Shown: in pieces, positions 33,738-64,000 of the stretch
Layout: each line of letters starts with the position of its first letter
Numbering within the stretch: position 1 is the first letter of the stretch
Source of the DNA: Polyangiaceae bacterium
Lineage (GTDB): Bacteria > Myxococcota_A > Polyangia > Polyangiales > Polyangiaceae
Reading direction: 5' to 3'
Length of the DNA stretch: 64,000 nt
Assembly (NCBI GenBank): GCA_016933275.1
Contig: JAFGBI010000225.1
Coordinates: 1 to 64,000 of the forward strand
Notes under the pieces: model-generated
The model's input: the letters and a program-made list of their open reading frames with translations, nothing else
What the model was told of the DNA's origin: nothing
Databases searched by the model: none
Made by a program: the position numbers and the translations under genes

Positions 33738-33841
33738 GGAAGATGCTCGCACCCGAGCTCTCGGAGAACCGGGACAATACACGTGACGCGGGCCCGTGTC
33801 TTGCTCATTGTGTCAACGGAGAGCGCGGGTTCCGTTGGCGG

Positions 33842-40585: not shown

Positions 40586-41194
40586 ATGTCCACCGAGCCC
40601 GCCACCAAGCCCAGGGTCACGCCGTCCCCGCCAGGAGTGAGCGGGCCCCCGGGGCCGAGGCGGTTCGGAAGGCTGGTCTGGCTGCTGGTGGCGGTCACCG
40701 GAATGGGAGCCGGGATCGGCGCCTTCACCTTCCGCTACGCCGAGGGATTCTCCTACCTCGGATCCGAGCCAGAGATCTGCGTCAACTGCCACATCATGCA
40801 GCCGGAGTACGATGGCTGGCAGAAGGCGAGCCACCATACGGTGGCACGCTGTGTCGACTGCCACCTCCCCGACGCCTTCGTCCCGAAGTACCTCGCCAAG
40901 GCAGAGAACGGCTTCCGACACGGCCAGAAGTTCACCACGGGCGACTTCGAGGAACCGATCACGGTCAAGGCACGGGGGCGCGAGATCCTCCAAGCCAACT
41001 GCGTGCGGTGCCACGCCGATCTGGTCGCCGAGCTCGCCCAGGGCTCTCCGGAAGGGCCAGCCCAGGCCGATTGCGTCCATTGCCACCCTGCCGTCGGGCA
41101 CGGCGAGAAGGCGGGGCTCGGGGGACCTCGTCGTGCAAGCTCGTGGGAACCCCTGGGTCCCAGAAGCGCAGGAGCGCGAACGAACCATGACTGA
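40586..41194 (+). CDS. nrfH: NrfH, tetraheme quinol dehydrogenase subunit of nitrite reductase
   Basis: This NapC/NirT-family membrane cytochrome passes electrons from menaquinol to NrfA on the periplasmic side. It is 202 aa, slightly longer than typical, owing to a proline-rich N-terminus. One membrane helix (about 29-48, [18 protein letters not shown]) anchors it. Four heme motifs are present: CVNCH (65-69), CVDCH (89-93), CVRCH (139-143) and CVHCH (163-167). The first is followed by I-M (CxxCHxM), the NrfH hallmark in which Met ligates heme 1. GGAGAG lies 7 nt before the ATG. The gene overlaps nrfA by 8 nt, so the subunits are translationally coupled. An FNR-like box lies upstream. Confidence 0.96.
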
Positions 41195-42785
41195 AGCAGC
41201 GAAGGGTGCCTGGTGGAGGGGTCGCGCGGCCCTGGTTGCGGCAACCGCGGTCGTCGCCCTGGTGGCAGCGGGGGTGACGGCGCTCCTGATGGACATCATG
41301 GAAAAGAAGGTCGAGCGCCGCCATGCTTTCGTCCGGGTGGTCGACGTCGGTGAGGACGACACCGATCCCGCCAAGTGGCAGCCCAACTTCCCTGCTCAGT
41401 ACGACGGCTATCGGCGCACGGCGCTGAAGACCCGCACCCGGTTCGGGGGGCACGCGGGGAGCGAGACCCTGCCCGAGGAGAAGATCGAGCGGCACCCGTG
41501 GTTGAAGCGCATGTTCCTCGGCTACGCATTCTCGATCGACTATCGGGATCGGCGCGGCCATGCACACATGCTCGCCGATCAGGAGGCCACCCAGCGGCTG
41601 ACGAAGCCGCAGTCGGGCTCCTGCCTGCACTGCCACGCCTCGATCATGCCGCTCTACCGGGACCTCGGCGGTGGCGACGCCATGAAGGGCTTCGAGGCGT
41701 CCTTCGCCATCCCCTACCAAGAGCTGAACGCCAAACTCCACCAACTCGGCCACGCCCACTCCGTGAGCTGCGTGGACTGCCACGACCCGAAGACGATGGC
41801 GCTCCGCGTGACTCGGCCGGGCTTCGTCAGGGGGATCCAGGCGCTCGCCGCCTCCGAGGCGCCGGTGCCAGCGCTGCCGTCCATCGAGATCTGGCGAGCG
41901 GGCAAGCGCCAGCGGCCGTTCGACCCCAACCAGGACGCGTCACGGAACGAGATGCGGTCGTTCGTGTGCGGGCAGTGCCATGTCGAGTACTACTGCGGGA
42001 GCAAGATGCAGCTGACGTTCCCCTGGGGGAGAGGGCTCCGCGCCGAGGACCTCGAGTCCTTCTGGAACGAGCAGAAGTTCCCCGATGGGTCCGCCTTCGC
42101 CGACTACCGGCATGCCGAGACCGGAGCGTCGATCCTCAAGGCTCAGCACCCGGAGTTCGAGCTCTGGAACCAGGGCATCCACTCGCGGAGCGGGGTGGCC
42201 TGCGCAGATTGCCACATGCCGTACATGCGGGAAGGGGCCACCAAGGTCAGCGATCACTGGGTACGGAGTCCGCTGTTGAACGTGAATCGCGCCTGCCAGA
42301 CCTGCCACCGTGTCGACGAACAGGAGCTATTGCTTCGCGTCGATGCGATCCAGGAGCGAAACTACCTCCTGCTCGAGCGGAGCGGCGCCGCCATCGCGGC
42401 CCTGATCCAGGCCGTGGTGGATGCGAAGGCGCGCGGCGCGACCCCCGCGCAGATCACCCCGGCGCTGGAGCTCCAGCGCAAGGCGCAGTGGCGCATCGAC
42501 TTCATCGCGGCCGAAAACAGCATGGGGTTCCACGCGCCCCAGGAGGCGGCACGCATCCTCGGGGAGGCCATCGACTACGCGCGTCAGGGTGAGCTCGCGC
42601 TCCATACCGGCGCGCCGCCCGCCCTCGCGCCGGCCCCTCCCGATGCTAGCGTGGGGACCGACGCCGGCCTCACCGACGCCACCGACGCGACGGGAGACGC
42701 CGTGCGGTCTGCGAAGCCAGGTGGATCCGCGGCAGCGCCGGCTGGATCCGCCGGAGCGCCGGCCCCCAGCACCGCAGCCCGGTAA
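41187..42785 (+). CDS. nrfA: NrfA, pentaheme cytochrome c nitrite reductase (ammonia-forming)
   Basis: NrfA reduces nitrite to ammonium with six electrons in the periplasm (DNRA). The protein is 532 aa with an N-terminal hydrophobic helix (about 16-36). Five heme motifs are seen: CLHCH (146-150), CVDCH (195-199), CGQCH (261-265), CADCH (339-343) and CQTCH (370-374). Active-site and calcium residues are in place: Arg123 in RGH, Glu267-Tyr268 after heme 3, and the K318-A-Q-H321 motif. The first, catalytic heme has CxxCH where many NrfA proteins have CxxCK; CxxCH forms are known in the family. About 60 residues at the C-terminus (Ala/Pro/Gly/Asp-rich) are an unusual tail. It overlaps nrfH by 8 nt. 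Confidence 0.96.
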
Positions 42786-43156: not shown

Positions 43157-43186
43157 GCAAAGCGAACCACGTAGGCCACCGCGCAA

Positions 43187-44476
43187 GTGGCCCCTGGCAA
43201 CCACTGGCAGCACTGCTTGCCAGGGCAGCCGCCTGCCCGCTGCCGGACGCCGATCTCCGAAACCGGTTCCGCTCCCGCTCCTGGCCCCCAAATCCCCGGC
43301 TCGCCCAGCGTGCCGCCGATCGAGGGTGGATCTGCACCCAATCCACTTGCACCCTTCCCCCGTCTTCGTGACAATGCCGTCGCCTTGGGCGACGCCTTCA
43401 CGCTCGGTCGTTTCGCCGCCGTTTCCGCGCGACTCGAGGCGGGGCAGCCGCGTGACGCAGTTCTCGCTGCCATGGGATTGAGCGAGGCGGACTGGCTCGC
43501 CGGGCAGCGAGCCTGGCTCGAAAGGCTCGCCACCCAGGTGCGGGCCAATCGATTCCAGCTCCTCACCCAATTCCTCGAGCTCCTGGAGGAAGAACGCTTT
43601 GGGCTCGGGACTCAGGTGATGGGTGGGCTCGACCGTCTGGCGCCCCCACCCATGGTGGTGGCGCAGCCGGATGGGACGGTCACGACGAGCCCCGTGGAAC
43701 CAGGGCCGGTCGGTTGGGCCCCGGCTCCAGGACCCTTGGCGCCCGAGGTCCCGCTGCCCGCGCCACCCACCGCTGCCAATCCCTCCGTCGAGCCGCCGCT
43801 CGCGTTCTTCCTATCTCCGTCCGCTGCAAGGGCCGCGTCACTCACCCCGACCTCGGTGTCCCCGCCAGCTCCCGGGTCGCCCGCTGCCCCGGCGCCCGCC
43901 GCCCCGGCGCCCGCCGCACCAGCGCCCGCAGCCTTCTTCACCTCGGCGTTCAGGGCCGTGCAGCAATCGCCGGAGGGGATTTCGCCCGTGGCCTACTCCC
44001 CTCCGCCAGCTCAGGTGGTCGCTTCCCCTCCTTCTCCCTGGCCCGCGCCGCCGGCGCCACCCGCAGGCTGGTCCGGCGCCATCGCGACCGGCCCGGTGTC
44101 ACCCCACCCCAGCGGGGCTCCGCAGGGAAGCTCGGATTCGGCGGCAGCCGGTCACGTCCCCGGGGCACCTCCCGCCGCCACGCCCCCTGGCTTCTTCGCC
44201 GCGGCCGGTGCGGCCGGCGCGCCTTCGGCAACGGCCGCCCCCGGCTCACCCAGCTCGGCTCCGCCCCCGGTTCGCTTGAGCCTCGAGCAGTACGCACACC
44301 TTACCATCGAGCTCGAGCGTGGAGGGAACACGCAAGCGGTCCTCACTCGTTATCACCTGACGCCGATCGGAAGGTACGCCGAGGATCTCGGGTGGCAGCA
44401 GAGGTTCGCGGCCGAACCAACCCTGCACGCCCAGTTCATGCGCCTCGTCGCGGCCTATCGCACCTCGCCGCGCTAG
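43187..44476 (+). CDS. Two-domain linker protein (unrecognised ~60-aa domain, twice), 429 aa
   Basis: No known family is recognised. A helical domain lies at about residues 70-140 (FAAVSARLEAGQPRDAVLAA, then M-G-L-S-E-A-D-W...W-L-E-R). A second is at the C-terminus, about 365-429 (LSLEQYAHLTIELERGGNTQ, then A-V-L-T-R-Y-H-L...W-Q-Q-R-F). They flank about 220 residues of Pro/Ala-rich, probably disordered linker. The 57474-58451 protein has the same layout, and both lie next to long TPR genes, so partnership with the TPR protein is inferred. No signal peptide is seen. GTG 43187 is the first usable start; a GTG near 43310 is an alternative. The adjacent transposase remnant makes the true 5' end doubtful. 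Confidence 0.7.
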   Translation: MAPGNHWQHCLPGQPPARCRTPISETGSAPAPGPQIPGSPSVPPIEGGSAPNPLAPFPRLRDNAVALGDAFTLGRFAAVSARLEAGQPRDAVLAAMGLSEADWLAGQRAWLERLATQVRANRFQLLTQFLELLEEERFGLGTQVMGGLDRLAPPPMVVAQPDGTVTTSPVEPGPVGWAPAPGPLAPEVPLPAPPTAANPSVEPPLAFFLSPSAARAASLTPTSVSPPAPGSPAAPAPAAPAPAAPAPAAFFTSAFRAVQQSPEGISPVAYSPPPAQVVASPPSPWPAPPAPPAGWSGAIATGPVSPHPSGAPQGSSDSAAAGHVPGAPPAATPPGFFAAAGAAGAPSATAAPGSPSSAPPPVRLSLEQYAHLTIELERGGNTQAVLTRYHLTPIGRYAEDLGWQQRFAAEPTLHAQFMRLVAAYRTSPR

Positions 44477-44749: not shown

Positions 44750-47700
44750 ATGGCGCAAAGCCTCGAAGAGATGGTCGATACGCTCCAGGCGGCCCTCGCC
44801 GTCAATCCGCGGGACGCCTGGAAGCGACTCCGCCTCGGCAAGCTCTTCGCCCGGCTCGGCCGTGAGGAGGCGGCGTTCGAGACGCTCCGGAGGGCGTTGC
44901 GCGACGACCCGAAGCTCGCTGAAGCCCACGTCGCGCTGGCGACCCTGCACGATGCCCGCGGCGAGGCGGCGGACCGCGAGCGAGAGCTGACGGATGCGCT
45001 GGCGGTGGATCCCGGCCACGTCGAGGCGACCTACGAGCTAGCTCGGCTCCGCGCTGGTCAAGCACGCCACGAGGAGGCCCTCGCCCTGCTCGCCCGGCCC
45101 GCCTGGCCTCCGCCGTGGCTGCCTCGCTCGCTGCGCGCACGAGCCGCGAGCGAGGGAAAGCTCGGGCGCTGGGACCGGGCGCTCGAGCTGCTGGAGCAGG
45201 CACGCCAGGTCGAGCCCGAGAACGTCGACCTCCGAGAGGAGCTCGGGCTTGCCTATTTCGCCAGTGAGCGGTGGCCACAAGCCGCCGCGGATCTCGGTCC
45301 CGTCGTCGCGACCGATCCGACTCGGATCGCAGCCCAACGCGGCCTCGTGCGCGCCCAGCTCGCGCTCGGCGAGGGGGCGGCGGCCCTGGCGGGCGCCGAG
45401 CGCCTGCTCGCTCGGCTGCCCGAAGATGTCGATGCGCGCGCCGACCGGGCGTCGGCGCTGGTGATGCTGGGCCGCGGGGCGGAAGCGCTCCCGCTCTTCA
45501 AGGAGGAGACCGTCGACCCACGCCTCGTCGGGCCGCTCTGCCGCTCGCTCATCGCGGTCGGGCGCGGCGCGGACGCGCTCCAGCGAGCGCGAGCGCTCGC
45601 CAAGGCGCACCCCGGCGAGGCGTCGGTTCAGGCGCTCCTCGGCGAGGTGCTGGCCACGGTCGGCCACGACGGCGAGGCGGTGGTCCCCCTGCGGCAAGCG
45701 CTCAGGCTCGGCGGCTCGGTCAGCGAGGCCGGGGTCGTCCTGGCCCAGGTGTACGAGCGGCTCGGACAGCCTCGCGACGCCCTCGAGCTCTTGGAGGCCG
45801 CCTGTGCCGAACGCCCGGCGGTGGCGCCACTGCTCGTGTCGCGCGGCCGCGCAGAGCTCGCTGCCGGGTTGCTCGAGAAGGCAGCAGCAACCTTTGCCGA
45901 GGCTGGGCGACTCGACGAAACCTCGGTGCCGGCACGGGTCGGACGCGCGCAGGCCTTGGTCGCTCTCGGCCGGCCGGGGGACGCCATCGCGGCCTACCGT
46001 GAGGTCCTCGATCTCGATGCCGGACGCGGCGAGGACTGGCTCGAACGAGGGCGCCTGGAGCTCGCCGAGCAGCGGTTGGAGGACGCGGCGAGCTCGCTCG
46101 GCAACGCGGACAGGCTCCTGCCCGAGTCGGCGGACGCGGCTGCGCAGCTGGGCGCCGCCCTGTTTGGCCTCCACCGTCTGGGCCCCGCCATCCAGGCGTT
46201 CTCTCGAGCGGTCGCGCTGCGGCCGAACGACGCCGCCTCATGGCTCGCCCTCGGTCGAGCCTACGCCGAGGTCTTCCGCAGCCCGGAGGCGATCGGCGCG
46301 CTCGAGCGGGCCACGCAGCTCGACTCGGAATCGGGTACCGCGTTCCTGCTGCTCGGGCGGGAGCGGGCCGCCATCAAGCGCGACGACCTGGCGGTGCCGG
46401 CGCTCGAGGTCGCGACGCAGCTCCTCCCCGGCGATCCCGCGCCCATCGCGGAGCTCGGGCTCGCGCTGTCCCGCCTCCGCCGCTGGTCCGATGCAGTACC
46501 GGTGCTCCGCAGTGCGGTCCAGCGCGGCGCCAAGACCACCCCCGTCCTCGCCGCCCTCGCCCAGGGCTGCCTCGGACTCGGCAGTCCCTCCGAAGCCGCA
46601 GAGTGGTACACGAAGCTTGCCTCGGCCGAGCCGGAGGTGGCGGAGCACCACGTCGGGCGGGCGGCAGCGTGGCTCGCGCTCGACCGTCGCGCGGAGGCCG
46701 AAGCGGCGCTGGTCCAGGCCGTCCGCCTCGATCCCGGCCACTCCGGGGCCCAGCAGCAGCTCGGCCGCCTCGAATGGGAACGGGGCGAACGCGGCTCGGC
46801 GCTCCTCCGCCTCCAGCGGGCGGCCGAGGGGTTCATCGACGACGACGATGCCTGGTGCGAGTTTGGACAGGCAGCACTGGCGATGGGGGCCGCCCGCGAC
46901 GCCGAACGCGCGTTCCGACGCCGGCTCGAGCTGGTGCCGGGCGACTTCGACGGGCTCTCCGGGCTCGCGCGCGCATTCGAGGCGCTCGAGCGGTGGCCCG
47001 AGGCGATCGAGCATTTTCGGCGCTGCCTGGCCCTTCGCTCCGAAGCGGTCGAGGATCGGCGACGGCTCGGGCTGTTGCTCGCGCGACTGCAGCGGGACGA
47101 GGAGGCCATCCGCGAGCTCGTGCCGGCGCTCGCCGGGGTCGACGACCCGGCGTTGCTCGAGGTGCTGGCAGACTCTCACCTCCGCCTTCACGAGGACGAG
47201 GCAGCGACCGTCGTGCTCGAACGCGCGCTCGGCGACGGGGCGGGGCCACCTGCGCTCCATGCCAAGGCCGGGCTCGCCTACGACCGCCTCGGCCGTGAGA
47301 AGCGTGCCCGCAAGCACCTCGAGCTCGCGATCCAGGACGAGAAGGATCCAGCGGTCATCGAGGCGCTGGGGCATCTGTACGTAGTGGAGGCGCGTCGACG
47401 AGCCGGCACCGAAGACGACGCGGAGGCGGTCGGGGACTATGAGCGTGCCATGCCGCTCCGTCCGCTGGACGTCGAGCTGCGCTGGGAGCTCGGCGGGGCG
47501 CTCCGTCGACTCGACCGCCGCGCGCGCGCGGTGGAGGTGCTGCGCGAGGGAGCGCGCCTGGCGGCGCGGGACGCCCGATTCCCGCTGGCGCTCGGCGAGC
47601 TGTCGTTCGAGGAAGGACAGCACGACGCCGCGCTCGGCTCCTTCGAGCTGGCGCTCTCGCTCGACCCCTCTTGCTTCGAGGCGCAGCGCGGGCGAGCCCG

Positions 47701-50700
47701 AACCCTGGTGGCGCTCGGCAGAGCGAGCGACGCCACGGCCGAGCTGCGCCGCGCCGTGGCGGCACGTCCGGACGCCACGGAGGAATGTGCCGTGTTGGGC
47801 GAGCTCCTGATCGAGCTGGGCAAGCCCGAGGAGGCGCTCCCCGTGCTGACCGAGCTCGTGGCTCGGTGCCCGCTGTCGGCGCGCGCCCTCGGCCTCCTCG
47901 GGACCGCCCAGCAGCAACTCCTGCGGCACCCGGTGGCGGTGACGTCGTTCCGGCGCGCGCTCGAGGTAGATCCGAGCCAGACCGATACGGCGCAGCAGCT
48001 CGCGACCAGCCTGGTCGCGCTCGAGCGCTGGGGAGAGGCGCTCCCCGTCCTGGAGCGGCTCGAGGGGGCCGACCCGAGCTGGCGTGACGAGCTATGCGGA
48101 CTCACCCTGGCGGGTCTCGGGCGCGACGCGGACGCGGTGCCGTATCTCGAGCGGACCGTGCAGCGCCGCACGGACCCGGTCCTGCTGCGAGCGCTCGCCC
48201 GCAGCGCCCTGCGCGCGGGGGAGCCGGGACAGGCCGCGCAAGCGGCACACCGTTTGCTCGAAGAGCTCCCGCAGGACCTCGACGCGCTCCGGACGCTGGC
48301 GGCGGCCGAGGCGGCGCGCCAGGATCGCGACGCCGAGGCACGCGCCTGGCAGCGCCTGCTCGCGATCGCGCCCGGGGATCCCGAGGCCCGACACGGCCTG
48401 GCCGCCGTGATGCGGCAGGAGGCGGAGCGAGCAGCGGCGGCCAACCCCGGGCTCGCGGTGGACCGTTTTCGCGAGATCGCGGCGCTGCGGGCCGAGGATC
48501 CGGTCGCCCACCGGGAGCTCGGCGAAGCTCTGGATCGCATGGGCGACGCGCAAGGGGCGCTGGCCGCCGTGCGCCACGGGCTCTCCGCCGCGCACCCTGA
48601 CGCCCCACTCGCGACGCTGGCGGGCACCTTGTTGCTCCGCGCGAACGAGCTCGAGGAGGCTCGCGCCATGTTCGATCTGGCGCTGCGCTGCAACCCTCGA
48701 CACGTGCCCGCACTGGCAGCGATGGCCGACGTCTTGGTCCGCCTTGACGACGCGAGCGGAGCCGTGGAGGCGCTGGCCGATCTGGTGGACGTGGACGAGA
48801 ACGCCATCGACGCCTGGCGGCGCCTTGCCGAGCTCCAGAATCAGCTCGGACGACACGGAGCCTCCGCGGATGCGTACGAGCGGGTGGCGGCGCTCGGCTC
48901 GTTGGGCCTGGACGAGCAGGTGACCTGGGGGCTGGCCCGCCGCGAAGCCGGGCAGCTCGAGGGAGCTTGTGAGCTGCTCTCGGCCGTCGTCAACGAATTG
49001 CCGGACCAGATCGAGCTTGCCCTGGCCCTCGCCGACGTGCAGCGGAGGCTCGGGCGGCGAGCGGAGGAGCTCGCTACCCTCGAGGGCGCCGCGAACCACG
49101 CCCCCGACGATCTCGTGGTCGCCGCGGAGCTCGCGCGCGCACAGGCGGCGTGTGAAAAATGGGAGGCCGCCTGCACCACCTACGAACGAGCACGCGGGTC
49201 GAACCCGACCGAACCCTGGCTCCGTGAGTGGCTCGCCGCAGCCGAGCAGGCCAACCACGTTCCCTCGCAGATCCGGGCGCTGACCGAGCTCACTGCGCTC
49301 CAGCCGGACGACGCGGAGGCCTGGTACCAGCTCGGGCGGGCGGAATGGAGCTCGGGCCGCGCGGAGGCGGCGCTGCCCGCGTTCGAGCGGGCGCGCTCGC
49401 TCGCCCCACGCAACCGCTCGATCGCGCGGGACCTCGCGACCATGGCGATCGAGCTCGCGAGCAGCGCCGACGCGCCGAACGTCTCGTGGCTCGTCTTGGC
49501 CACCGAGCACGGCGAGGACGAGCCGGATCTGCTGGTCATCGCAGCGAGGCTCTGGCGACGGGCCGGGGAGCTCACCGCCAGCCGCGACGCGGCCCGTACC
49601 GCCGTGGAGGGGGCTCCGAACGACGTGGAGGCCCTGGTGCTCCTGGCCGAGCTCGAAGAGCAGCTCGGGGATCTCGAACCGGCCGCCCGCACCTTCGAAC
49701 AGGCATTGCGGGTCAAGGTCGATGCGATCGACGCGCTCCGCGGCCTCGCCCGAGTTGAGCTCGCGCTGGGTGACGCGCGCGCCACGAAGACCGCCGAGCG
49801 CCTGATCGCCCTGACCCCCGACGACGAGCTCGGGCGGTCGCTCGCGGCGGAGGCCGCCGAGGCCGCCGGGGCGCCCGAGCGGGCGGTGGAGCACTGGCAG
49901 TGGCTGTTGACCAACGCTCCGTCGCGAGACGACGCCCGCCCGCGGCTCGCGCGCCTCCTGGGCGAACTCGGCAGACACCGGGATCGGATCGAGCTCCTGA
50001 CCGGAGTGAGGGACGACGACGCCCTCGCGCTCATGCTAGCCATGTCCTGGCTCGCGGTGGGGGAGCCGGGGCGAGCAGCAGGCGTGGCTCCGACGACGGG
50101 CAGCGGGGACCTCGCGGGCGCAGCGTGGGCGGTCAAGGCCCGCGCCCTCGTCGCCGTCGGCACCGAATCCGACGCGGCAGCCGCGTTCGAGCAGTCCTTC
50201 GTCAACGGCAATCGGAGCGTGGTAGAAGAGTGGCACGAGCTCGTCGTCCGCCTGGGCCGCCACCTGCCTTGGCGCGATGCCGCCGACCTGCTCGCGCGAA
50301 CCGTCGAGCACGCGCCAGCGGCCAGCTTGCTGACCCTCCTCGCGGAACGGGAGCTCGAGGGTGGGCGTGCCCAGCCCGGTCTCGCCGCGGCGCAGCGCGC
50401 CCTGACGCTCGGCGCGGGCGCCGAGGCGTGGCGCCTCGTCGGTACGGCCTACGAGAGGGTGGGTGACGAGCGCGCCGCAGCCGAGGCCTTCGCCAAGGCG
50501 GCCGGCGCGGATCCGACGGACCGCACGGCGGTGCTCGGGGTCGCCCGCATGGAACGGGCCGGCGGTCGACACGCGGAGGCGATCGCGGCGCTCAAGCGAC
50601 GGGTCGTCGAGGACCCCCATGACACCGAGGCCCTGGCGTTGCTCGCCGACTCCTACGACGCGACCGGCGAGATCGCGGACGCGGTCCGCGCGTGGCAGCA

Positions 50701-53700
50701 GCTGCTCGGTGCCGGCAAGCTCGCCCCCGAGGCCTGCGCCCGGCTCGGGCATCGCTGTCTCGAGCTCGGGCGCGCCGAAGCCGCCGCCGAAGCGTTCGAG
50801 GAGGCCCTCGATGCTGCTCCCGACGAGGCGGAGCTCCTGACCGCGCTCGGTGACGCACGGCTGCGCATGAACGACCCCGAGGCGGCGACACCACCCCTCG
50901 AGAAGGCGATCCGACTGGGGGCGGCGACGCCGCCAACCCGGGCCCTCCTGGCCCGCGCCCATCTCGGGTGCAGAAGGTACGTGGACGCCATCGCGGCGCT
51001 CGCGAAGACCCCGATCGAGGACGACGCGACGCTTCGGGTCCTGCTCGAGGCGGCGACCCAGGCCCAGGACGACGCCGAATGCGTGCGGGCCCTCGAGGGG
51101 CTGATCGCGGTGGCCCCGAGCCCATCGTGGTTCCTGGCGCTCGCGGACGTGTTCGAACGAGGGGGACGGCGGCGCGACGCCATCAACCGCTTGCGCGCGG
51201 CAGAGCGCACGCCGGACCTCGAGCAACGACTGGTGTCGCTCTGCCTCGACGAGGGCGACGCGGCCCTCTCGCGCGGCGAACCGGAGCTCACGCGGTTGCT
51301 GCTCGAGGAGGTGGCGTCGTTGTGGCTCGAACCCGTCGCGGCGCTCCGCGCCGCCCGCCTCGCCCGCACCATCGGGCACCCGTCGCTCGTGTTCCGGGTC
51401 GGGGAGCGCGCGCTGGTGGAGGGAGCGCCGCCGGAGGTGGTCCACGACGCGCGGTTGCTGCTCGGGGCCGTCGAGCTGGCCTCGGGTGGCAAAGACCGGG
51501 CACTCTCGCACTACCGCGCCGCGATCGAGGCGCGCTTCGACTCCGTGGAAGCGCTCCTCGGAGCCGCCGCCTGCGCCTTCGAGCTGGGTGATTTGACTGG
51601 TGGGGCTCCGTCGCTGGTTCGCGCGCTGCGCCTCGAACCCACCCGCGTGCAGGGACGCACCCTGGCGTGGGAATGGGCTCGCCGCGTACCGACGGCCGAG
51701 CTCGTGCCCGCGCTGGCGCTCCTGGTCGAAGCCAACCCCGACGACACCATGGCGCACCGCGAACTCGGCCACCTGCTAGCGGCCGGTGGACAGGCGGGCG
51801 AAGCCGTGGAGCACCTCCGCGAGGCGATGCGGCTCGGTACCGATCCTGACACGCTGGCGCTCCTAGCGAGGCTCTCGATGGAGGTCGGGGACGACGAGAC
51901 GGCGCGAGCCGCCGCCGACGAAGCGTTGACCGTCGCGCCCAGCCACCGGGCAGCGCGGACATGGCGCGCCGTGGCCTCGTTGCCCATCGCCGCGGCGACG
52001 GAGCTTCCGACGATGCTCGCGGACCTGCGACCCGACCTCATGACCTCGGCCGAGCGCGCGCGGGTCGCCCTCGCCCTCGCGCGGCGCGCGAGCGAGCTCG
52101 AGGCCGCGGGGGATCCGGGGAGCGCCGCCCTCGTCTACGGCAAGATCGAGGTCATCGATCCACAGCAGGGTCGGCAACAAGCGCTGCAAGGGGCGCGCGC
52201 CGCGCTGGCCGCCGGGGATCTCGGGCTGGCGGCGCAGCGCGCCGAGTCGGCGACGCGCGCGCGTGCCGACGACGTCGAGGCCCATGTCCTGCTCGGGGAG
52301 ATCCGCGAGCGTGCCGGAGCGGACGCCGAGGCGCTCGCTGCGTACGGAGCGGCGCTCGGGATCGACCGGGGACACCCCGCGGCCCTGCGCGGGTACGGCC
52401 TCACCGCCGCGCGGCTCGGTCGCCACGAGGACGCCCTGCGGACCCTGCAGGCCGGGATCCCGCGGCAGCCCGGCCCCGATCCCGAGATGGTGGCCACCCT
52501 CGGGGGCAGCGCGGAGGCGCTCGGACGACGGGCAGAGGCGGTGGACAGCCTGCGGCAGCTCGCTGCCCTCCGACCGCTGACCATCGGGGAAGAACGGCGG
52601 CTCGGCTCGCTCCTGCTCGCGTCGAGCGATCCAGCTGAGGCGGTCCGCCATTTGGAGGCTGCCGCGACCGCCAAGCCCGAGCCGGCCATCCTCGACGAGC
52701 TCGCCAAGGCCTATGAGCGGTCGGGGAACCTGGCAGGTGCGATCTCGGAGCTCCAGCGCCTCGCGGAGCTCGCGCCCGACCACCCAGGCTTGCAGGCGCG
52801 CCTCGGGCAGCTGCTGGTATCGTCCGGAGACCATCGCGGCGCACTGCGGTCGCTCGAGATGGCGCTCAACGCCGAGGGAGAGCGGGTCGAGCTGCTCGAG
52901 GCCGCGTACGAGGCGAGCCGCCTAGCTCAGGATCGTTCCGGGGTTCTGCGCTACGGCGCGCGCCTGGCGAAGGTGGCGCCCCGGCCCGAGGTGCTGCTAT
53001 CGCTCGGAAACGCTCGGCTCGCGGCAGGTGACGTCGAGGGGGCGCTGGTCGTCCTGTCCCAGGCGGTGGAGCAGGGCACGGTCGAAGCTCGCGACGTGCT
53101 CGCGAACGCGCTGGGCGAGCGCGCCGCGCAATACGCCAGCACCGGGGATGGAACCGCGGCGGCCGTGTGCCTCCGCCAGGCGCTCGAGCTCAATCCCGAG
53201 CATGTGGAGCACCGCTATCGCCTGGGTCTGCTCGAGCTCGAGGCTGGCGATCTGCTGCGAGCCCGGGAGGATCTGGCCCGGGCCGCGCGCGCCCCAGACG
53301 CTTCCGCCGCCTGCCTCGGGGCCACCCTCCGAGCAGCAGAGCGGATGAAAGACGCCAAGCTTGCCATCCTGGCGGGGGAGCGCCTGATCGCCCAGACCCC
53401 GACCGCCCCCACCGCCCGCAGCCTGGCCGGCGCCTGTGAGGCCGAAGGCAAGACCGCCGAGGCCATTCGCTACTACGAGTGCGCCGTCGCCTGCGAACCG
53501 AGGGACGTCATCGCGCTGTTGGCGATGGCGCGCCTCCACGCCCGGGCGGGCGACCACGCGGCAACGCTCACCGTGATCGGGAAGGCGGTCCAGATCGAGC
53601 CTGGCAATTACATCGCCAACGCGCTGCGAGCGGACGCGCTCACGCGACTCGGCCGACACCAGGACGCCATCCCGGTGCTGGAGTGGATGCTGAGCCAGCA

Positions 53701-54886
53701 TGCGAGCGTCGAGACGCTGCGGCAACTCGCGTACAGCCACGCTTCGCTCGGGCAGGTCAAGGAAGCGGTGGGGGTGCTCGAGCGCGCGGCCCAGCACGCG
53801 CCCCAGGACACGCAGCTCCTCGTACAGCTTGGCGCGGCCCGGCTGTCCGCCGGCGATCCCGCGGGCGCGATGGTTGCGTATGAACGCGTGCTGACGCTCG
53901 AGCCCTCGGCGGAGAACGCAGCGGCGTTCGTGGGCGTGGCGCTGCAGGTCGGCGCCGACTCGCTCCGCGCGGGGCAGGCGGCAGGCGCGGTGCGGTGGCT
54001 CCTTCGCGCGAGGGCCATCGCGCCCGACCGCCTGGACGTACAGCTTGCCGTCGTCCGAGTCGCGCTCGCCACTCAGAATCCGACGCTCGCCATCGACGCG
54101 GGTCGGCGGGTCGCCAGCATGAACGATCGAGCTCTCGAGACTCCGCTGATCCTCGAGCTGGGGCGTGCCGCGGAAACGACCGGCGACCTCGGGGAAGCGC
54201 GGAGGTATTACCTCTTGGCCCTGGGCAGGGAACCGCGCAACCCGGCCGCGCTGTTCGCGGTCGGTTGCCTGGACCTCCGGGAGGGCGCCCCCGCCCGGGC
54301 GGCCGAAGCCCTGACTCGCTGTCGAAACGAGAACCCGGACCACCCGCGCGTCGCCACCATGCTGGCGTTGGCGTGGCTGGCGAACGGCGCTGGAGCCCAG
54401 GCCGCGGACCTGTTATCCGCAGAGATACAGCGGTCGCCGCGAGATGGGGAGGCCCACGAAACGTTGGGGCTAGCCCTCGCTCGGATGCGGCACTACAGGG
54501 AAGCGGCTGGCGCCTGCGCCACCGCCGCGGCGCTCGGCCGCAGCAATGCCACGCTCTACGCAACCTGGGGTGAATGCGCTCTGAACTTCGGCGATATGAA
54601 GCTCGCGGGGAATGCCCTGAAGCGAGCCTTGGAGCTCGACCCCAACGACCCAGGGGCGATCGTGCGGAACGCAAGCGTCGTCTTTGCGGAGGGCCGGCGC
54701 GAGGAGGCCATCGCCGAGGTCCGCCGAGCGATTGGCATCGCGCCCCGCGAACCGCGATCGCGGCTCGAACTCGCCAGCATGTACATCAAGATGAACCGGG
54801 CCGATCTAGCCCGACCGGAATACGAGGCGCTTCGTCAACTCGATCCGGAGATGGCCGCGCGGCTCTCTCGCTTCTTTCCCGGATGA
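44750..54886 (+). CDS. Giant TPR-solenoid protein, 3,378 aa
   Basis: Almost the entire protein is tetratricopeptide repeats. The unit of about 34 residues, A-x-x-x-L-G-x-x-x-x-x-L-G-R-x-x-E-A-x-x-x-x-x-x-A-x-x-L-x-P, recurs from residue ~10 to the C-terminus (LYATWGECALNFGDMKLAGN...). The length allows roughly 90-100 units. No signal peptide, membrane helix, kinase or other enzyme domain is seen. The N-terminus (MAQSLEEMVDTLQAALAVNP) resembles that of the 1,252-aa TPR protein, which suggests common origin. TPRs form right-handed superhelices that bind proteins, so this is probably a very long cytoplasmic scaffold. The two-domain linker gene lies upstream and mltD 59 bp downstream on the same strand. 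Its cargo is unknown. Confidence 0.95.
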   Translation: MAQSLEEMVDTLQAALAVNPRDAWKRLRLGKLFARLGREEAAFETLRRALRDDPKLAEAHVALATLHDARGEAADRERELTDALAVDPGHVEATYELARLRAGQARHEEALALLARPAWPPPWLPRSLRARAASEGKLGRWDRALELLEQARQVEPENVDLREELGLAYFASERWPQAAADLGPVVATDPTRIAAQRGLVRAQLALGEGAAALAGAERLLARLPEDVDARADRASALVMLGRGAEALPLFKEETVDPRLVGPLCRSLIAVGRGADALQRARALAKAHPGEASVQALLGEVLATVGHDGEAVVPLRQALRLGGSVSEAGVVLAQVYERLGQPRDALELLEAACAERPAVAPLLVSRGRAELAAGLLEKAAATFAEAGRLDETSVPARVGRAQALVALGRPGDAIAAYREVLDLDAGRGEDWLERGRLELAEQRLEDAASSLGNADRLLPESADAAAQLGAALFGLHRLGPAIQAFSRAVALRPNDAASWLALGRAYAEVFRSPEAIGALERATQLDSESGTAFLLLGRERAAIKRDDLAVPALEVATQLLPGDPAPIAELGLALSRLRRWSDAVPVLRSAVQRGAKTTPVLAALAQGCLGLGSPSEAAEWYTKLASAEPEVAEHHVGRAAAWLALDRRAEAEAALVQAVRLDPGHSGAQQQLGRLEWERGERGSALLRLQRAAEGFIDDDDAWCEFGQAALAMGAARDAERAFRRRLELVPGDFDGLSGLARAFEALERWPEAIEHFRRCLALRSEAVEDRRRLGLLLARLQRDEEAIRELVPALAGVDDPALLEVLADSHLRLHEDEAATVVLERALGDGAGPPALHAKAGLAYDRLGREKRARKHLELAIQDEKDPAVIEALGHLYVVEARRRAGTEDDAEAVGDYERAMPLRPLDVELRWELGGALRRLDRRARAVEVLREGARLAARDARFPLALGELSFEEGQHDAALGSFELALSLDPSCFEAQRGRARTLVALGRASDATAELRRAVAARPDATEECAVLGELLIELGKPEEALPVLTELVARCPLSARALGLLGTAQQQLLRHPVAVTSFRRALEVDPSQTDTAQQLATSLVALERWGEALPVLERLEGADPSWRDELCGLTLAGLGRDADAVPYLERTVQRRTDPVLLRALARSALRAGEPGQAAQAAHRLLEELPQDLDALRTLAAAEAARQDRDAEARAWQRLLAIAPGDPEARHGLAAVMRQEAERAAAANPGLAVDRFREIAALRAEDPVAHRELGEALDRMGDAQGALAAVRHGLSAAHPDAPLATLAGTLLLRANELEEARAMFDLALRCNPRHVPALAAMADVLVRLDDASGAVEALADLVDVDENAIDAWRRLAELQNQLGRHGASADAYERVAALGSLGLDEQVTWGLARREAGQLEGACELLSAVVNELPDQIELALALADVQRRLGRRAEELATLEGAANHAPDDLVVAAELARAQAACEKWEAACTTYERARGSNPTEPWLREWLAAAEQANHVPSQIRALTELTALQPDDAEAWYQLGRAEWSSGRAEAALPAFERARSLAPRNRSIARDLATMAIELASSADAPNVSWLVLATEHGEDEPDLLVIAARLWRRAGELTASRDAARTAVEGAPNDVEALVLLAELEEQLGDLEPAARTFEQALRVKVDAIDALRGLARVELALGDARATKTAERLIALTPDDELGRSLAAEAAEAAGAPERAVEHWQWLLTNAPSRDDARPRLARLLGELGRHRDRIELLTGVRDDDALALMLAMSWLAVGEPGRAAGVAPTTGSGDLAGAAWAVKARALVAVGTESDAAAAFEQSFVNGNRSVVEEWHELVVRLGRHLPWRDAADLLARTVEHAPAASLLTLLAERELEGGRAQPGLAAAQRALTLGAGAEAWRLVGTAYERVGDERAAAEAFAKAAGADPTDRTAVLGVARMERAGGRHAEAIAALKRRVVEDPHDTEALALLADSYDATGEIADAVRAWQQLLGAGKLAPEACARLGHRCLELGRAEAAAEAFEEALDAAPDEAELLTALGDARLRMNDPEAATPPLEKAIRLGAATPPTRALLARAHLGCRRYVDAIAALAKTPIEDDATLRVLLEAATQAQDDAECVRALEGLIAVAPSPSWFLALADVFERGGRRRDAINRLRAAERTPDLEQRLVSLCLDEGDAALSRGEPELTRLLLEEVASLWLEPVAALRAARLARTIGHPSLVFRVGERALVEGAPPEVVHDARLLLGAVELASGGKDRALSHYRAAIEARFDSVEALLGAAACAFELGDLTGGAPSLVRALRLEPTRVQGRTLAWEWARRVPTAELVPALALLVEANPDDTMAHRELGHLLAAGGQAGEAVEHLREAMRLGTDPDTLALLARLSMEVGDDETARAAADEALTVAPSHRAARTWRAVASLPIAAATELPTMLADLRPDLMTSAERARVALALARRASELEAAGDPGSAALVYGKIEVIDPQQGRQQALQGARAALAAGDLGLAAQRAESATRARADDVEAHVLLGEIRERAGADAEALAAYGAALGIDRGHPAALRGYGLTAARLGRHEDALRTLQAGIPRQPGPDPEMVATLGGSAEALGRRAEAVDSLRQLAALRPLTIGEERRLGSLLLASSDPAEAVRHLEAAATAKPEPAILDELAKAYERSGNLAGAISELQRLAELAPDHPGLQARLGQLLVSSGDHRGALRSLEMALNAEGERVELLEAAYEASRLAQDRSGVLRYGARLAKVAPRPEVLLSLGNARLAAGDVEGALVVLSQAVEQGTVEARDVLANALGERAAQYASTGDGTAAAVCLRQALELNPEHVEHRYRLGLLELEAGDLLRAREDLARAARAPDASAACLGATLRAAERMKDAKLAILAGERLIAQTPTAPTARSLAGACEAEGKTAEAIRYYECAVACEPRDVIALLAMARLHARAGDHAATLTVIGKAVQIEPGNYIANALRADALTRLGRHQDAIPVLEWMLSQHASVETLRQLAYSHASLGQVKEAVGVLERAAQHAPQDTQLLVQLGAARLSAGDPAGAMVAYERVLTLEPSAENAAAFVGVALQVGADSLRAGQAAGAVRWLLRARAIAPDRLDVQLAVVRVALATQNPTLAIDAGRRVASMNDRALETPLILELGRAAETTGDLGEARRYYLLALGREPRNPAALFAVGCLDLREGAPARAAEALTRCRNENPDHPRVATMLALAWLANGAGAQAADLLSAEIQRSPRDGEAHETLGLALARMRHYREAAGACATAAALGRSNATLYATWGECALNFGDMKLAGNALKRALELDPNDPGAIVRNASVVFAEGRREEAIAEVRRAIGIAPREPRSRLELASMYIKMNRADLARPEYEALRQLDPEMAARLSRFFPG

Positions 54887-54945: not shown

Positions 54946-56829
54946 ATGTATGCAAAAGTGGCCCCTCAGATGGTACCGCGAGTCCTGAGCCGGTTGCTCG
55001 TGTATCCGATCGTCCTCTTCTGCGGGATGGCGGTGGGGTCGACCTTCGGCCCGACACCCAGTGCCACGCCGCCGACGGGGCGGTTCCCGCAGCGCGATGG
55101 TCAGCCACCCGCGCACCCGGACGGGCGTTTGGGCGCCGAATCGGTGGAGCTTCGCGCCTTGCGGGCGGCGGAACGCCACCTGTTCCCCGAGCTCCACGGC
55201 TTCGACCCCGATGCGTCCCTCGCGGATCGATGGGACCACGGCGAAGCGATCGGCGACGTCGACGACGGGAACCGCCGTCGATCGTCCGACTCCTCCCGGC
55301 GAACGGGGAATTTCCTCGCTGATCTCGCCAAGCCCGACCTGCCCGTCCAGCGCCACCCGCGGGTCGCCAAGTACATCAAGTACTTCTCCGAGAACGCGGA
55401 GGGGCGAAAGCTTCTCACGTCGTGGCTGAAACGGAGTGGGTACTACCAGGAGATCGTCGAGGATGCCCTCCGAGCGGAGGAGCTGCCGATCGACCTCCGG
55501 GCGGTGGTCTTCATCGAGAGCGGCTGCTGGCCCACCGCGCGCTCGACCGCCGGCGCCCTCGGTCTCTGGCAGTTCATGCCCCGCACCGCGCGCGCCTATG
55601 GGCTGGTGGTCGATGGCAACGTGGACGAGCGCCGCAGCATCTGGCGCTCGACCGAAGCGGCAACCCTGCACCTGCGCGACCTCCACGACCGGTTCCGGTC
55701 GTGGGATCTGGCGCTCGCGGCCTATAACTACGGTCACGAGAACGTCGAGCGTCGAATGGGGGAGCTTGCCGCGAACAACTACTGGGAGCTCGCTGACATC
55801 GACGGCGGCCTGCCGCGGGAGACGGCCCTCTACGTCCCCAAGGTCCTCGCGGTGGCGGTGATCCTGCGGAACCTCGAGCACTTCGGCTTCGACGACGTCG
55901 AGCTCGCGGAGCCGCTGCGCGCCACGGCCATCCAGGTCCCGCCCGGGATCAGACTGTCCCTGATCGCGCGGGCAGCAGGGACCAGCACGCGAACGGTCCG
56001 GGAGATGAACCCGGAGTTCCGGGAGGACATGATTCCCGACCGCGGTGGTCCATCGGTGGTGCGAATCCCGACGGAGGGGCTGGCGCGCGCGCGGACGATG
56101 CTGCCGAGGCTGGTGCAGAACGATAGCGATTCCGCCCTGGATCTCTCGGCCTCCTACGATTTCGACTGGGGCCGCGATGAGTTCGGCACCGACGGAGGGA
56201 TGACGGCGCTCGAGCGGCTGAGCCGGACCAGGTCGCCCAAGGCGAGGAAGCGGCAGGCCCCGCTGGAGCTCCTCAACTCGGCCCCGCTGTCACCCGCCTC
56301 GCGAGCCGCGGCGGAGGGTCTCGAGCCCGATGACGGGGACGCCGAGACGAGTGACGCGCCCTCTGAGACGGATCTCGTCGAGGCGGCCAGATCTGGTCGC
56401 GTCACGCGACCGCGTCGCTCCCGCCAACAAGGGGCCGAAGTGCCGCGTGCGCTACCGCGTTCTCGGGTCGTGCACCGGGTGGAGGCCGGGGAGACCGTTT
56501 GGGATCTGGCGCAGATGTACGGCGTCAGCTCGGGGCACATCGTCCGCGAGAACAACCTGTCCAATCCGGACCTGATCACGCCAGGGCGTACCCTGGTGAT
56601 GCACGTGCCCACGGTGAACACCAAGAAGCCGGCCGAGGACAGCGCTCCGGCGGCGGCCTCCGCAGCCGAACCCGTTCCGGCTCCCAGCACCGGCGCCCCG
56701 CCACCAACGCCCGCGAGCGAAACGCCCAAGGCGGCCGCGAGCGAGGCGCCGACGAGCGAACCGTCAATGACGCCAGCGCCCACCCGACCATCCTCGAAGT
56801 CCACTCGCCGCCGCCAACGGCGGCGGTGA
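54946..56829 (+). CDS. mltD: MltD-type lytic transglycosylase with LysM domain, 627 aa
   Basis: It cleaves peptidoglycan glycan strands to 1,6-anhydromuramyl products in the periplasm. Hydrophobic residues 13-31 (VLSRLLVYPIVLFCGMAVG) are a signal peptide or anchor; the ATG at 54970 is an alternative start. The SLT/GH23 domain spans about 165-300. It includes the catalytic Glu191 in VVFIESG, AGALGLWQFMPRTA, and LALAAYNYG with the later substrate-groove residues. A LysM-like segment follows (about 325-375, ending with VVRIP), then a long low-complexity region, then a clear LysM at about 507-553 (VEAGETVWDLAQMYGVSSGH). The tail is Pro/Ala-rich and ends in arginines. The gene starts 59 bp after the giant TPR gene, so co-transcription is likely. 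Confidence 0.92.
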   Translation: MYAKVAPQMVPRVLSRLLVYPIVLFCGMAVGSTFGPTPSATPPTGRFPQRDGQPPAHPDGRLGAESVELRALRAAERHLFPELHGFDPDASLADRWDHGEAIGDVDDGNRRRSSDSSRRTGNFLADLAKPDLPVQRHPRVAKYIKYFSENAEGRKLLTSWLKRSGYYQEIVEDALRAEELPIDLRAVVFIESGCWPTARSTAGALGLWQFMPRTARAYGLVVDGNVDERRSIWRSTEAATLHLRDLHDRFRSWDLALAAYNYGHENVERRMGELAANNYWELADIDGGLPRETALYVPKVLAVAVILRNLEHFGFDDVELAEPLRATAIQVPPGIRLSLIARAAGTSTRTVREMNPEFREDMIPDRGGPSVVRIPTEGLARARTMLPRLVQNDSDSALDLSASYDFDWGRDEFGTDGGMTALERLSRTRSPKARKRQAPLELLNSAPLSPASRAAAEGLEPDDGDAETSDAPSETDLVEAARSGRVTRPRRSRQQGAEVPRALPRSRVVHRVEAGETVWDLAQMYGVSSGHIVRENNLSNPDLITPGRTLVMHVPTVNTKKPAEDSAPAAASAAEPVPAPSTGAPPPTPASETPKAAASEAPTSEPSMTPAPTRPSSKSTRRRQRRR

Positions 56830-57473: not shown

Positions 57474-58451
57474 TCAGGCACGCGGCCGATAGTACTCCAC
57501 CAGCGCCAGGTATCGGTGGCGTAGGTGCGGCGCGACCTCGAAACGCTGCTGCCACCGCGCGTCCTCTTGCTGGTAGGAGGGGAGATCGAAGCCGTGGCGG
57601 GCCAGGATCTCGAGGACCTGGACGGGCTTGGCGGTGAGCTCGACGTCGATCGAGGCGAGCTGTTCGAGCAGCAGCGGGCGCCACCCCAGAGCGGCGCTGG
57701 GGGCGGCGGCCGCTTGAGGCAGCGTCTGCTGGTCGTAGTACGCCCCGGACGCCGACAGATCGGGCGCTTGAGCCGCCACCGGAACCAGGCCCGCGTTCTG
57801 CTGGGCAGCAAAGACCCCGGACGCCGACAGATCGGGCGCCTGAGCCGCCGCCGAGGCCATGCCCGCGATCTGCTGGCCACCGTAGCCCCCGAGCGCCGAC
57901 TGGTTCGGTGGCTGAACGGCGGAAGCCACCCCCGTTGGCTGTTGGGTGACGTAGCCCCCGGACGCCGCATGGCCGGGTGGCGCCGCAGCGAGCCCGGCGC
58001 TGGGCTGTGGATAGGGCGAGGCCTCTGGCGGCGGGGTCTGCGCCCGAAGCACGGGGGTCACTGGCGCCGGATCGTTGACGGTGGGCGGCGGGGGCTCGTG
58101 AACGTCTGCGTGCAGGACCGGGGTGACCGGAGCCGCAGATGCCTGCTCATCCGCAGCATCCCAGGGAGTGCTTGGGTCGGGCGCCGCCGGAGACACGCCG
58201 CCGCTCGGCAGATCCGCCGTCGGCGGCGCGGTGCCCGCCAGGGCCAGCAACCGTTCATGGGCGGCCTGCAACGCCGCCTCGACCTGCCGGCGGACGTTCG
58301 GATCCCGCTCCGCCCAGGTCTGCCACCGCTCGTGCTCCGTTTCCCACTCTTCGAGGGTCACTCCGGCGCCGGCGATGGCGGTTTCGACGGGCACTCCGCA
58401 TTGAATTCGGAGCCACAGGTCTGCGTACTGGTCGATGGAAGGGGTGGTCAT
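57474..58451 (-). CDS. Two-domain linker protein (unrecognised ~60-aa domain, twice), 325 aa
   Basis: The N-terminal domain (about 8-68, IDQYADLWLRIQCGVPVETA...W-E-T-E-H-E-R-W-Q-T-W) and C-terminal domain (about 265-325, RPLLLEQLASIDVELTAKPV...R-W-Q-Q-R-F-E-V...Y-L-A-L-V-E-Y-Y-R) resemble each other and both domains of the 43187-44476 protein. Between them is an Ala/Pro/Gln linker with a 24-residue repeat (GxYxxQQxAG...AQAPDLSAS). No signal peptide, membrane segment or catalytic motif is seen. The gene starts 9 nt after the stop of the 1,252-aa TPR gene, so the two are one operon and probably partners. I do not recognise the domain family. Confidence 0.8.
   Translation of the reverse strand: MTTPSIDQYADLWLRIQCGVPVETAIAGAGVTLEEWETEHERWQTWAERDPNVRRQVEAALQAAHERLLALAGTAPPTADLPSGGVSPAAPDPSTPWDAADEQASAAPVTPVLHADVHEPPPPTVNDPAPVTPVLRAQTPPPEASPYPQPSAGLAAAPPGHAASGGYVTQQPTGVASAVQPPNQSALGGYGGQQIAGMASAAAQAPDLSASGVFAAQQNAGLVPVAAQAPDLSASGAYYDQQTLPQAAAAPSAALGWRPLLLEQLASIDVELTAKPVQVLEILARHGFDLPSYQQEDARWQQRFEVAPHLRHRYLALVEYYRPRA
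57716..57985 (-). repeat. 72-bp in-frame repeats in the linker
   Basis: About four degenerate 72-bp units encode the 24-residue linker repeat. The sequence CCCCGGACGCCGACAGATCG recurs exactly 72 bp apart at 57743 and 57815. Such repeats vary in copy number easily, which fits a spacer. Confidence 0.8.
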
Positions 58452-62219: not shown

Positions 62220-62355
62220 GGCCCACGGTCCGATACTCTACCGGATAGCTCGGGCCCTGGGGCGCAGAGTTCTCCTTCCGGAACCAGCTTCCCAAGCGGG
62301 GTGGACTCATGGGAACCTCGCCCTCGAGGATCCGCTGAACAGCGGAAGAGGAGCG
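62220..62355. promoter_or_regulatory. Divergent promoter region with third TPR-upstream motif
   Basis: The 136 bp between two divergent genes must hold both promoters. On the minus strand CTGCGCCCCAGGGCCC (62252-62267) resembles the motif before the other two TPR genes but ends 32 nt from the start. On the plus strand GGAAGAGGAG just before 62356 is a good ribosome-binding site. No confident -35/-10 pair was found. Confidence 0.4.
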
Positions 62356-63629: not shown

Positions 63630-64000
63630 CTATCCCAGGCGGGCAGCGAATCCAACCGCGTCGAGACGCACCTGCGCGAATCGATGCGGGCGAACGGTGA
63701 CGTGAAGCTTCCCGTCCGCCACTCTGGCCTCGATCTCCGGCGCGGGCCGCCCCGCCCCGGGGAAGAGGCGACTCAGCAAGGCTCGGGCGAGCTGCGCAGC
63801 GACGTCCGGCGGGGTCCCGGCAGGAACGGCATCGGCGAGCTGCTCCACGGCGTGAGCGACTCTCGCCACGAACAACTGATCGGGCAGACCGAGCTCCGGC
63901 GCCGCGTCGCCGCCCTGCGCGACGGTAGGCCCGCGATAGAGCATGGGTGCGTGAGCCAGGATGGCCGTGTCGCGATTGAGCGGTCCACCGAGCAGCGCAA
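63630..64000 (-). CDS. C-terminal fragment, weakly like type VI sheath protein TssC
   Basis: The frame is open to the right edge, so the N-terminus is missing; 122 codons are visible and the ATG at 63944 is probably internal. It reads LPDQLFVARVAHAVEQLADA, then a helix-rich segment, then KLHVTVRPHRFAQVRLDAVG and a stop. L-F-x-A-R-x-A-H-x-x-x-x-L, followed near the C-terminus by V-x-V/L-R-P-H, recalls the end of TssC/ImpC sheath proteins of type VI secretion. The usual W-L-x-x-Y and P-G-x-Y motifs are not evident, so this could be a divergent member or unrelated. It is convergent with the preceding gene, with 8 bp between them. Confidence 0.4.
   Translation of the reverse strand, partial: ALLGGPLNRDTAILAHAPMLYRGPTVAQGGDAAPELGLPDQLFVARVAHAVEQLADAVPAGTPPDVAAQLARALLSRLFPGAGRPAPEIEARVADGKLHVTVRPHRFAQVRLDAVGFAARLG

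Follow-up and report, generated by a model that had tools for sequence, protein, structure and literature searches.

Several described systems resemble parts of the locus that we report here. TPR repeats follow a consensus pattern over 34 residues (W4-L7-G8-Y11-A20-F24-A27-P32) and fold as helical hairpins, and TPR superhelices have a pitch of ~7 nm. In O-GlcNAc transferase (OGT), the TPR solenoid is fused to an enzyme. T6SSs have accessory proteins, such as TagJ/HsiE1 and TssA, that act beside the tss core. Designed TPRs have eight repeats per superhelical turn (PMC7885266). The window that we analyzed, a stretch of 64,000 nucleotides from a contig of a Polyangiaceae bacterium, encodes a far larger TPR protein (positions 44750 to 54886, forward strand), which we call P. 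We propose that P is a cytoplasmic, end-capped TPR superhelix of ~98 repeats that serves as an accessory scaffold of the neighboring T6SS, a reading to which we assign a probability of roughly 45%.

The reading frame of P opens at an ATG, closes at a stop codon, and encodes 3,378 aa. A long open frame alone is weak proof of a gene here because the GC content of the window is 74%, and a 2,134-aa frame antisense to a larger one in the same window is also open. Codon usage supported coding (log-odds = 930), with a score that is tilted toward P because P was among the few genes used for training. The repeat content is stronger evidence that P is genuine. Using a 34-position profile trained on P, we counted 81 clear repeats, compared to one to three in shuffled versions of the protein (n = 5). 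The start-to-start spacing of these repeats (n = 80) was exactly 34 residues in 54 cases, 35 to 40 in eight, 50 in two, and 63 to 74 in sixteen. Since each of the sixteen longest spacings fits one degenerate repeat, the total comes to ~98. Pfam, which is independent of our own profile, identified TPR_16 (E = 7.6e-104). A spurious GC-rich frame was ruled out as the source of P by the repeat content together with the codon score.

We found nothing in P other than TPR-type sequence. Among the best 25 of the 26 Pfam families that matched at E ≤ 0.01, those above the cut-offs were all TPR or TPR-type, including ANAPC3, NatA_aux_su, ChAPs, and TT21, while FAT, Clathrin, Alkyl_sulf_dimr, and DUF4810 fell below the cut-offs; none of these 25 was an enzymatic domain or a family of another type above its cut-off. 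Pfam also gave no match to PAAR, Rhs, a toxin domain, or any T6SS-specific model. By hydropathy, P has neither a signal peptide nor a membrane helix (19-residue maximum, 1.45; N terminus, 0.44), and it is probably located in the cytoplasm.

Structure prediction was largely in keeping with an unbroken solenoid. From a five-row input alignment of TPR stretches taken from the window itself, AF2 models were obtained for two 1,100-residue parts (residues 1 to 1100 and 2027 to 3126), about two-thirds of the chain. The first part had a mean pLDDT of 87.7 and 65 helices, with no stretch of three or more residues below 50. The second had a mean pLDDT of 80.8 and fell below 50 at residues 2136 to 2139 and 2412 to 2426. 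The predicted solenoid is thus almost unbroken in the modeled parts, although residues 2412 to 2426 (positions 51983 to 52027, forward strand) form a weak point that lies in a 40-residue gap between clear repeats and is likely one hinge. Because pTM was low (0.39 and 0.35, respectively), the hairpins are reliable while the long-range path is not. With its tandem 34-residue repeats, recognized by Pfam and by our profile and modeled as helical hairpins, P belongs among the TPR solenoids. The preliminary description of this DNA had portrayed P as a nearly pure, continuous TPR solenoid without an enzymatic or targeting domain, and the repeat count, Pfam, and AF2 bear this out, apart from the likely hinge. 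Of the two results that it named as refuting, Pfam revealed no other domain and the modeled parts no separate short blocks, save for that weak point. Its estimate of about twelve superhelical turns also holds arithmetically at eight repeats per turn (98/8).

The two ends of P are not ordinary repeats. We built profiles from the first 90 or the last 75 residues of related proteins, leaving the tested protein out of each profile. The terminus was the best-scoring place for the N-terminal profile in all six members tested and for the C-terminal profile in all seven. For P, the N-terminal profile scored 61.2 bits at residue 2 versus 25.8 at the next best place, and the C-terminal profile scored 39.4 bits at residues 3307 to 3375 versus 19.4. 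P therefore carries a family-specific N-terminal cap that includes its first repeats (residues 1 to 90; positions 44750 to 45019, forward strand) and a family-specific C-terminal cap (last 75 residues and stop codon; positions 54659 to 54886, forward strand). Across 108 genomes of the same bacterial family, the N-terminal profile identified at least 14 places at E ≤ 5.0e-27, in nine genomes and eight genera, well separated from ordinary TPRs (next place, 5.9e-17). The open frames at these places span 862 to 3,399 codons. The count of 14, which leaves out one gene with its N terminus cut off (G063:C75), is a lower bound, given that scoring covered the best 49 candidates in each genome and that the contigs are fragmented.

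Other searches reached the same family. Residues 1 to 700 of P, searched in 98 same-family genomes with the best 11 candidates per genome scored, recovered at least two relatives at E ≤ 1e-25, namely G003:C225 (3,183 aa) and G063:C414 (1,258 aa). A scan of T6SS loci gave a further member, G010:C29 (1,731 aa), and searching 12 genomes with a TPR profile brought in G010:C70 (2,898 aa) along with G063:C75 and G063:C874, two genes truncated where their contigs end; a scan of contigs with P as query yielded no relative. By eye, the last residues of G063:C874 (L185, 1159-6318) are un-TPR-like and differ from the usual C-terminal cap, so that this member perhaps has another kind of C-terminal region. 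A sister of P lies in the window itself. This protein, Q (positions 58461 to 62219, reverse strand), has 1,252 aa and 33 clear repeats (~36 in total), and it was assigned by repeat profile, alignment, and cap profile; it shares 28% identity with P over 1,139 columns. Complete members that we read (n = 6) range from 1,252 to 3,378 aa. With its at least 14 members, the family is a natural series of one design in different lengths, which should be useful for testing selection on solenoid length.

P is surrounded by genes with links to the T6SS, a setting that, like the family caps, the preliminary description had missed. A lytic transglycosylase gene with SLT and LysM domains (positions 54946 to 56829, forward strand), identified by Pfam and locus comparison, begins 59 bp after P. 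Its counterpart adjoins the ClpV gene in 21 of the 39 T6SS locus sets scanned and has both ClpV and FHA no more than two genes away in 19. To the left of P, a 484-aa small TPR protein (positions 34692 to 36146, forward strand) aligns with TPR proteins inside the T6SS clusters of three other genomes (G028, G095, and G072) at 46%, 41%, and 42% identity over 466 to 473 columns. With this gene on one side and the SLT gene on the other, P falls inside a T6SS-linked stretch. Farther right, positions 62356 to 63621 (forward strand, start set by eye) encode a Pro-rich protein that is strongly hydrophobic in one stretch (19-residue hydropathy, 2.98); Pfam gave no match to positions 62239 to 63618. Beyond it, the window takes in the last part of a gene for a VipA-VipB(N) fusion (Pfam; positions 63630 to 64000, reverse strand), which runs to position 65537 of the contig. 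On the same contig to the right of P, Pfam identified, besides this fusion, FHA, ClpV, TssJ, TssK, TssL, TagF, TssA, TssB, TssC, TssM, TssF, a gp25-type TssE-like protein, and Hcp; TssG was assigned by position and the gene order of relatives only. P is thus encoded beside a tss cluster.

Other features of the region deserve mention in their own right. The VipA-VipB fusion lacks the VipB C-terminal sheath domain, and normal TssB and TssC are also present. Genes that best match the fusion were found in 16 of the 39 T6SS locus sets, and its product might initiate or cap the sheath or act as a decoy. A gene for cytochrome c552 (an NrfA-like nitrite reductase by Pfam; positions 40812 to 42785) sits between T6SS-linked genes, and the stretch around P also holds a TIG-domain gene and others with no known T6SS link. 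Finally, a single reading frame at positions 3 to 33782 (reverse strand) stays open for at least 11,245 codons and runs off the start of the contig; the giant protein it encodes is more than three times as large as P. Big_7, TIG, and other Ig-like domains occur in the part scanned (positions 20001 to 33782), and RCC1-like text was noted by eye at its visible end.

Despite this neighborhood, P could be a general-purpose, giant cytoplasmic scaffold of this bacterial family, with a placement beside the T6SS that is incidental or lineage specific. We consider this the main rival to an accessory T6SS role, and a real if doubtful possibility. The 14 family genes occupy 13 loci, since P and Q share one. 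A core tss gene lies no more than 20 kb away at four of these loci: G000:C353 (P and Q), G010:C29, G102:C123, and G063:C414, where the family member is beside TssM. That number is well above chance, with a binomial probability for four or more of 3e-5 or 1e-4 if, as we assumed, 1.5% or 2% of the genome is that near. At G028:C19, TssC is 35 kb away on the same contig. On the other side, nine of the 14 members are outside the four linked loci or beyond judgment. No T6SS gene or linker gene was found in the 50 kb read around G003:C225, and no T6SS gene was found in the 18 kb read around G010:C70 or in the part read around G063:C75, which rules out that every giant TPR gene is a T6SS gene. The remaining loci were judged on ~1.5 kb of upstream sequence or on short contigs, and their genomes carry TssC on other contigs, as is the case for G030:C396 (~1.5 kb upstream covered). 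By eye, the G030 gene adjoins a PilB/GspE-like ATPase gene, and G102:C203 adjoins transporter-like genes.

The nearest relatives of P on the tree are G003:C225 and G030:C396 (support, 89/92), which are among the unlinked or unjudged members, as a general scaffold would have it. T6SS linkage was not clustered on a tree of 12 members (three changes; 213 of 500 shuffles were as low), another point against a T6SS role. When approached from the T6SS side, open frames with at least 30 repeats were found in three of the 39 locus sets, two of which (G000 and G063) were first found by their TPRs; frames with at least 10 repeats were absent from 20 random regions. Giant TPR genes are therefore not a general feature of T6SS loci, and the association of the family with T6SSs, as judged from gene neighborhoods, is real but partial. 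What speaks against an incidental placement in the case of P, besides the excess of linked loci, is that it is flanked on both sides by T6SS-linked genes and has a linker gene of the VgrG-associated type just upstream.

That linker (positions 43385 to 44476, forward strand, start codon uncertain) has two modules of ~62 aa that look helical, with a Pro/Ala-rich stretch between them, giving it the outline of a dumbbell. Its open frame begins at position 43187, where the first part falls in a dispersed DNA repeat, and we rejected the first ~58 residues as part of the linker, as they are mostly repeat. The repeat itself spans ~160 bp (positions 43170 to 43329). In comparisons with nine other loci, two matched over ~160 bp at 93 to 94% and one over 109 bp at 94%, and, once translated, the repeat had another 21 matches in the genome at the protein level. 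Module comparison revealed the same two-module plan in a 325-aa protein encoded next to Q (positions 57474 to 58451, reverse strand). The module occurs at E ≤ 1e-3 in 27 of 60 genomes of the bacterial family, often at least twice per frame. We fetched regions around 20 of more than 150 such places, mostly the top-ranked ones, including one region only 3.3 kb long. VgrG genes were found in 11 of the 20, compared to none of 20 random regions, and one more region has other tss genes. The count was the same (11/20 versus 0/20) when queries came from outside the counted regions. The linkers are thus largely VgrG-island proteins. In G095, the tss cluster contains a linker gene and the small TPR gene as neighbors, with VipA-VipB one gene further.

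The preliminary description had pointed to an adjacent linker protein. That protein is real, and its family is often found beside VgrG genes. No linker gene turned up near G063:C414, G010:C70, or G003:C225, nor around G010:C29 as far as that locus was scanned, so that the pairing of a linker with a giant TPR protein is seen in this genome only. The linker family had no match in Pfam, NCBIfam, or PADLOC. As for a solved relative of the module, we rejected the only candidates, which were designed Pizza proteins (repeated short matches) and one weak match (E = 0.34).

If P is an accessory scaffold, it would form an acidic single superhelix (net charge, -106) whose 98/8 turns, at a pitch of ~7 nm, would make an arm ~80 to 90 nm long. 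T6SS parts or loaded VgrG-effector assemblies may be collected or kept in order on this arm, probably in contact with P through the dumbbell linker encoded just upstream. The repeats of P are identical to each other at a mean of only 7.1 of 34 residues, and comparison of the DNA with itself gave just two pairs of 31-nt matches (77%). These low identities and the absence of long DNA repeats argue that the repeats are old and rule out a recent or assembly-made expansion.

Among close relatives, each repeat is held in place. Q and G063:C414 come from different genera, and each belongs to a T6SS locus. Their alignment spans 1,251 columns at 34.5% identity and has six gaps, none of 20 residues or more, and a score of 1660 versus 647 to 1277 after rotation by whole repeats. 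By this alignment, the length of Q has been kept repeat for repeat across two genera, with none gained or lost. The first 580 residues of G003 and G030 also align without gaps. The alignment of P with G003 covers 3,097 columns (30.7% identity; 60 gaps) and scores 1952 versus 1240 to 1749 when rotated; P is longer by 195 residues, or ~6 repeats. More distant pairs do not look clearly colinear. Q scored 851 against G010:C29 (545 to 695 when rotated), with eleven long gaps and lengths that differ by 479 residues, and G010:C70 scored 2064 against G003 (1762 to 1888 when rotated). Over five ortholog pairs, identity was 66.7% at core positions, 41.3% at groove positions (which we take to be positions 2, 5, 9, 12, 13, 33, and 34 of the repeat), and 50.2% at the rest. 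The classical ligand groove is thus the least conserved and fastest-changing surface, the opposite of what a conserved binding site for one ligand would show, and this argues against one fixed ligand repeated along P.

Exact conservation of length in Q is the reason that we retain, as the boldest reading, the idea that P and Q are molecular rulers whose repeat number determines a distance within the T6SS or envelope. We regard this as unlikely, even with colinear pairs such as Q and G063:C414 or the start of G003 and G030 in its favor. Members differ in length by hundreds of residues, as P and Q do from G003 and G010:C29, respectively. Furthermore, ~80 to 90 nm is far shorter than a cell-spanning T6SS sheath, and any old solenoid whose partners are fixed would also be expected to keep its repeats in order. 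The suggestion in the preliminary description that P may act as a ruler or multivalent scaffold stays a conjecture: the Q orthologs favor a constraint on length, while the variable groove weighs against a simple scaffold for many copies of one ligand. In some T6SSs of this myxobacterial family, a capped TPR filament of fixed length, with each repeat preserved over long evolutionary time, might serve as an internal measuring or docking arm, although we hold the odds of this to be low. It is just as speculative that such a filament would space or queue loaded VgrG-effector tips through the dumbbell linkers. To our knowledge, an arm of this kind is known from no other contractile injection system.

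Two further explanations fare worse than that of an accessory scaffold. It is very improbable that P is secreted, sits on the cell surface, or serves as an effector that the T6SS delivers. Near G010:C29 there are a VgrG gene and genes that look effector-like by eye, and G001:C583 likewise has one neighbor that looks effector-like by eye, but P has no signal peptide, transmembrane segment, PAAR, Rhs, or toxin domain, its C terminus is a conserved cap rather than a variable domain, and it is probably too large for the T6SS tube. That P is PrsT, MamA, or PilW, the names that automatic annotation would give it because it exceeds the NCBIfam cut-offs (TIGR02917, 649 versus 312; MamA, 534 versus 200; PilW, 249 versus 154), can be dismissed almost outright, since the names are mutually exclusive, each is earned by summed repeats, Q passes all three as well, and P has 3,378 aa versus profiles of 899, 204, and 234 positions. 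PrsT (TIGR02917), which has a lipoprotein-type or exported N terminus, and PilW are contradicted by the missing signal and the lack of a hydrophobic N terminus, and MamA, at ~200 aa with few repeats, by size. Beyond these generic TPR matches, PADLOC and NCBIfam returned nothing for P and Q, and such names should serve as a warning to users of automatic annotation.

Our literature search found nothing on giant TPR proteins in myxobacterial T6SSs or on a capped family of this kind, and the closest comparisons are with solved structures. The best PDB sequence matches of P are designed consensus TPR superhelices (PDB 2fo7/2hyz, 8bu0, and 9qhb), which have the same 34-residue repeat in unbroken register. 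However, their repeats are nearly identical and their chains reach up to 564 residues, whereas P is natural, with ~98 diverged repeats and special caps. The superhelical TPR domain of OGT (PDB 1w3b and 7yea) is matched by P in both sequence and fold, but it is a shorter solenoid, and P lacks the enzyme. With Foldseek, residues 1 to 1100 of P matched chains of the SKI, IFT-A, and Paf1 complexes and of OGT. The best of these, subunits of SKI and IFT-A (PDB 4buj and 8fgw), have chains of ~1,300 to 1,370 residues and, as a candidate scaffold might, form parts of large assemblies; they are eukaryotic, and their TM-scores against P are only 0.2 to 0.3 at 12 to 16% identity. TagJ/HsiE1, TssA, and similar accessory proteins of the T6SS are much smaller than P, which matches none of the T6SS-specific Pfam models. 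Compared to the TPR chains among the structure-search matches, P is far longer, and it combines this length with caps, a conserved order of repeats, and no other domain. The TPR fold is thus well known, while a natural, capped chain of ~98 repeats in a T6SS setting appears to be new, and that setting gives the giant chain a testable job.
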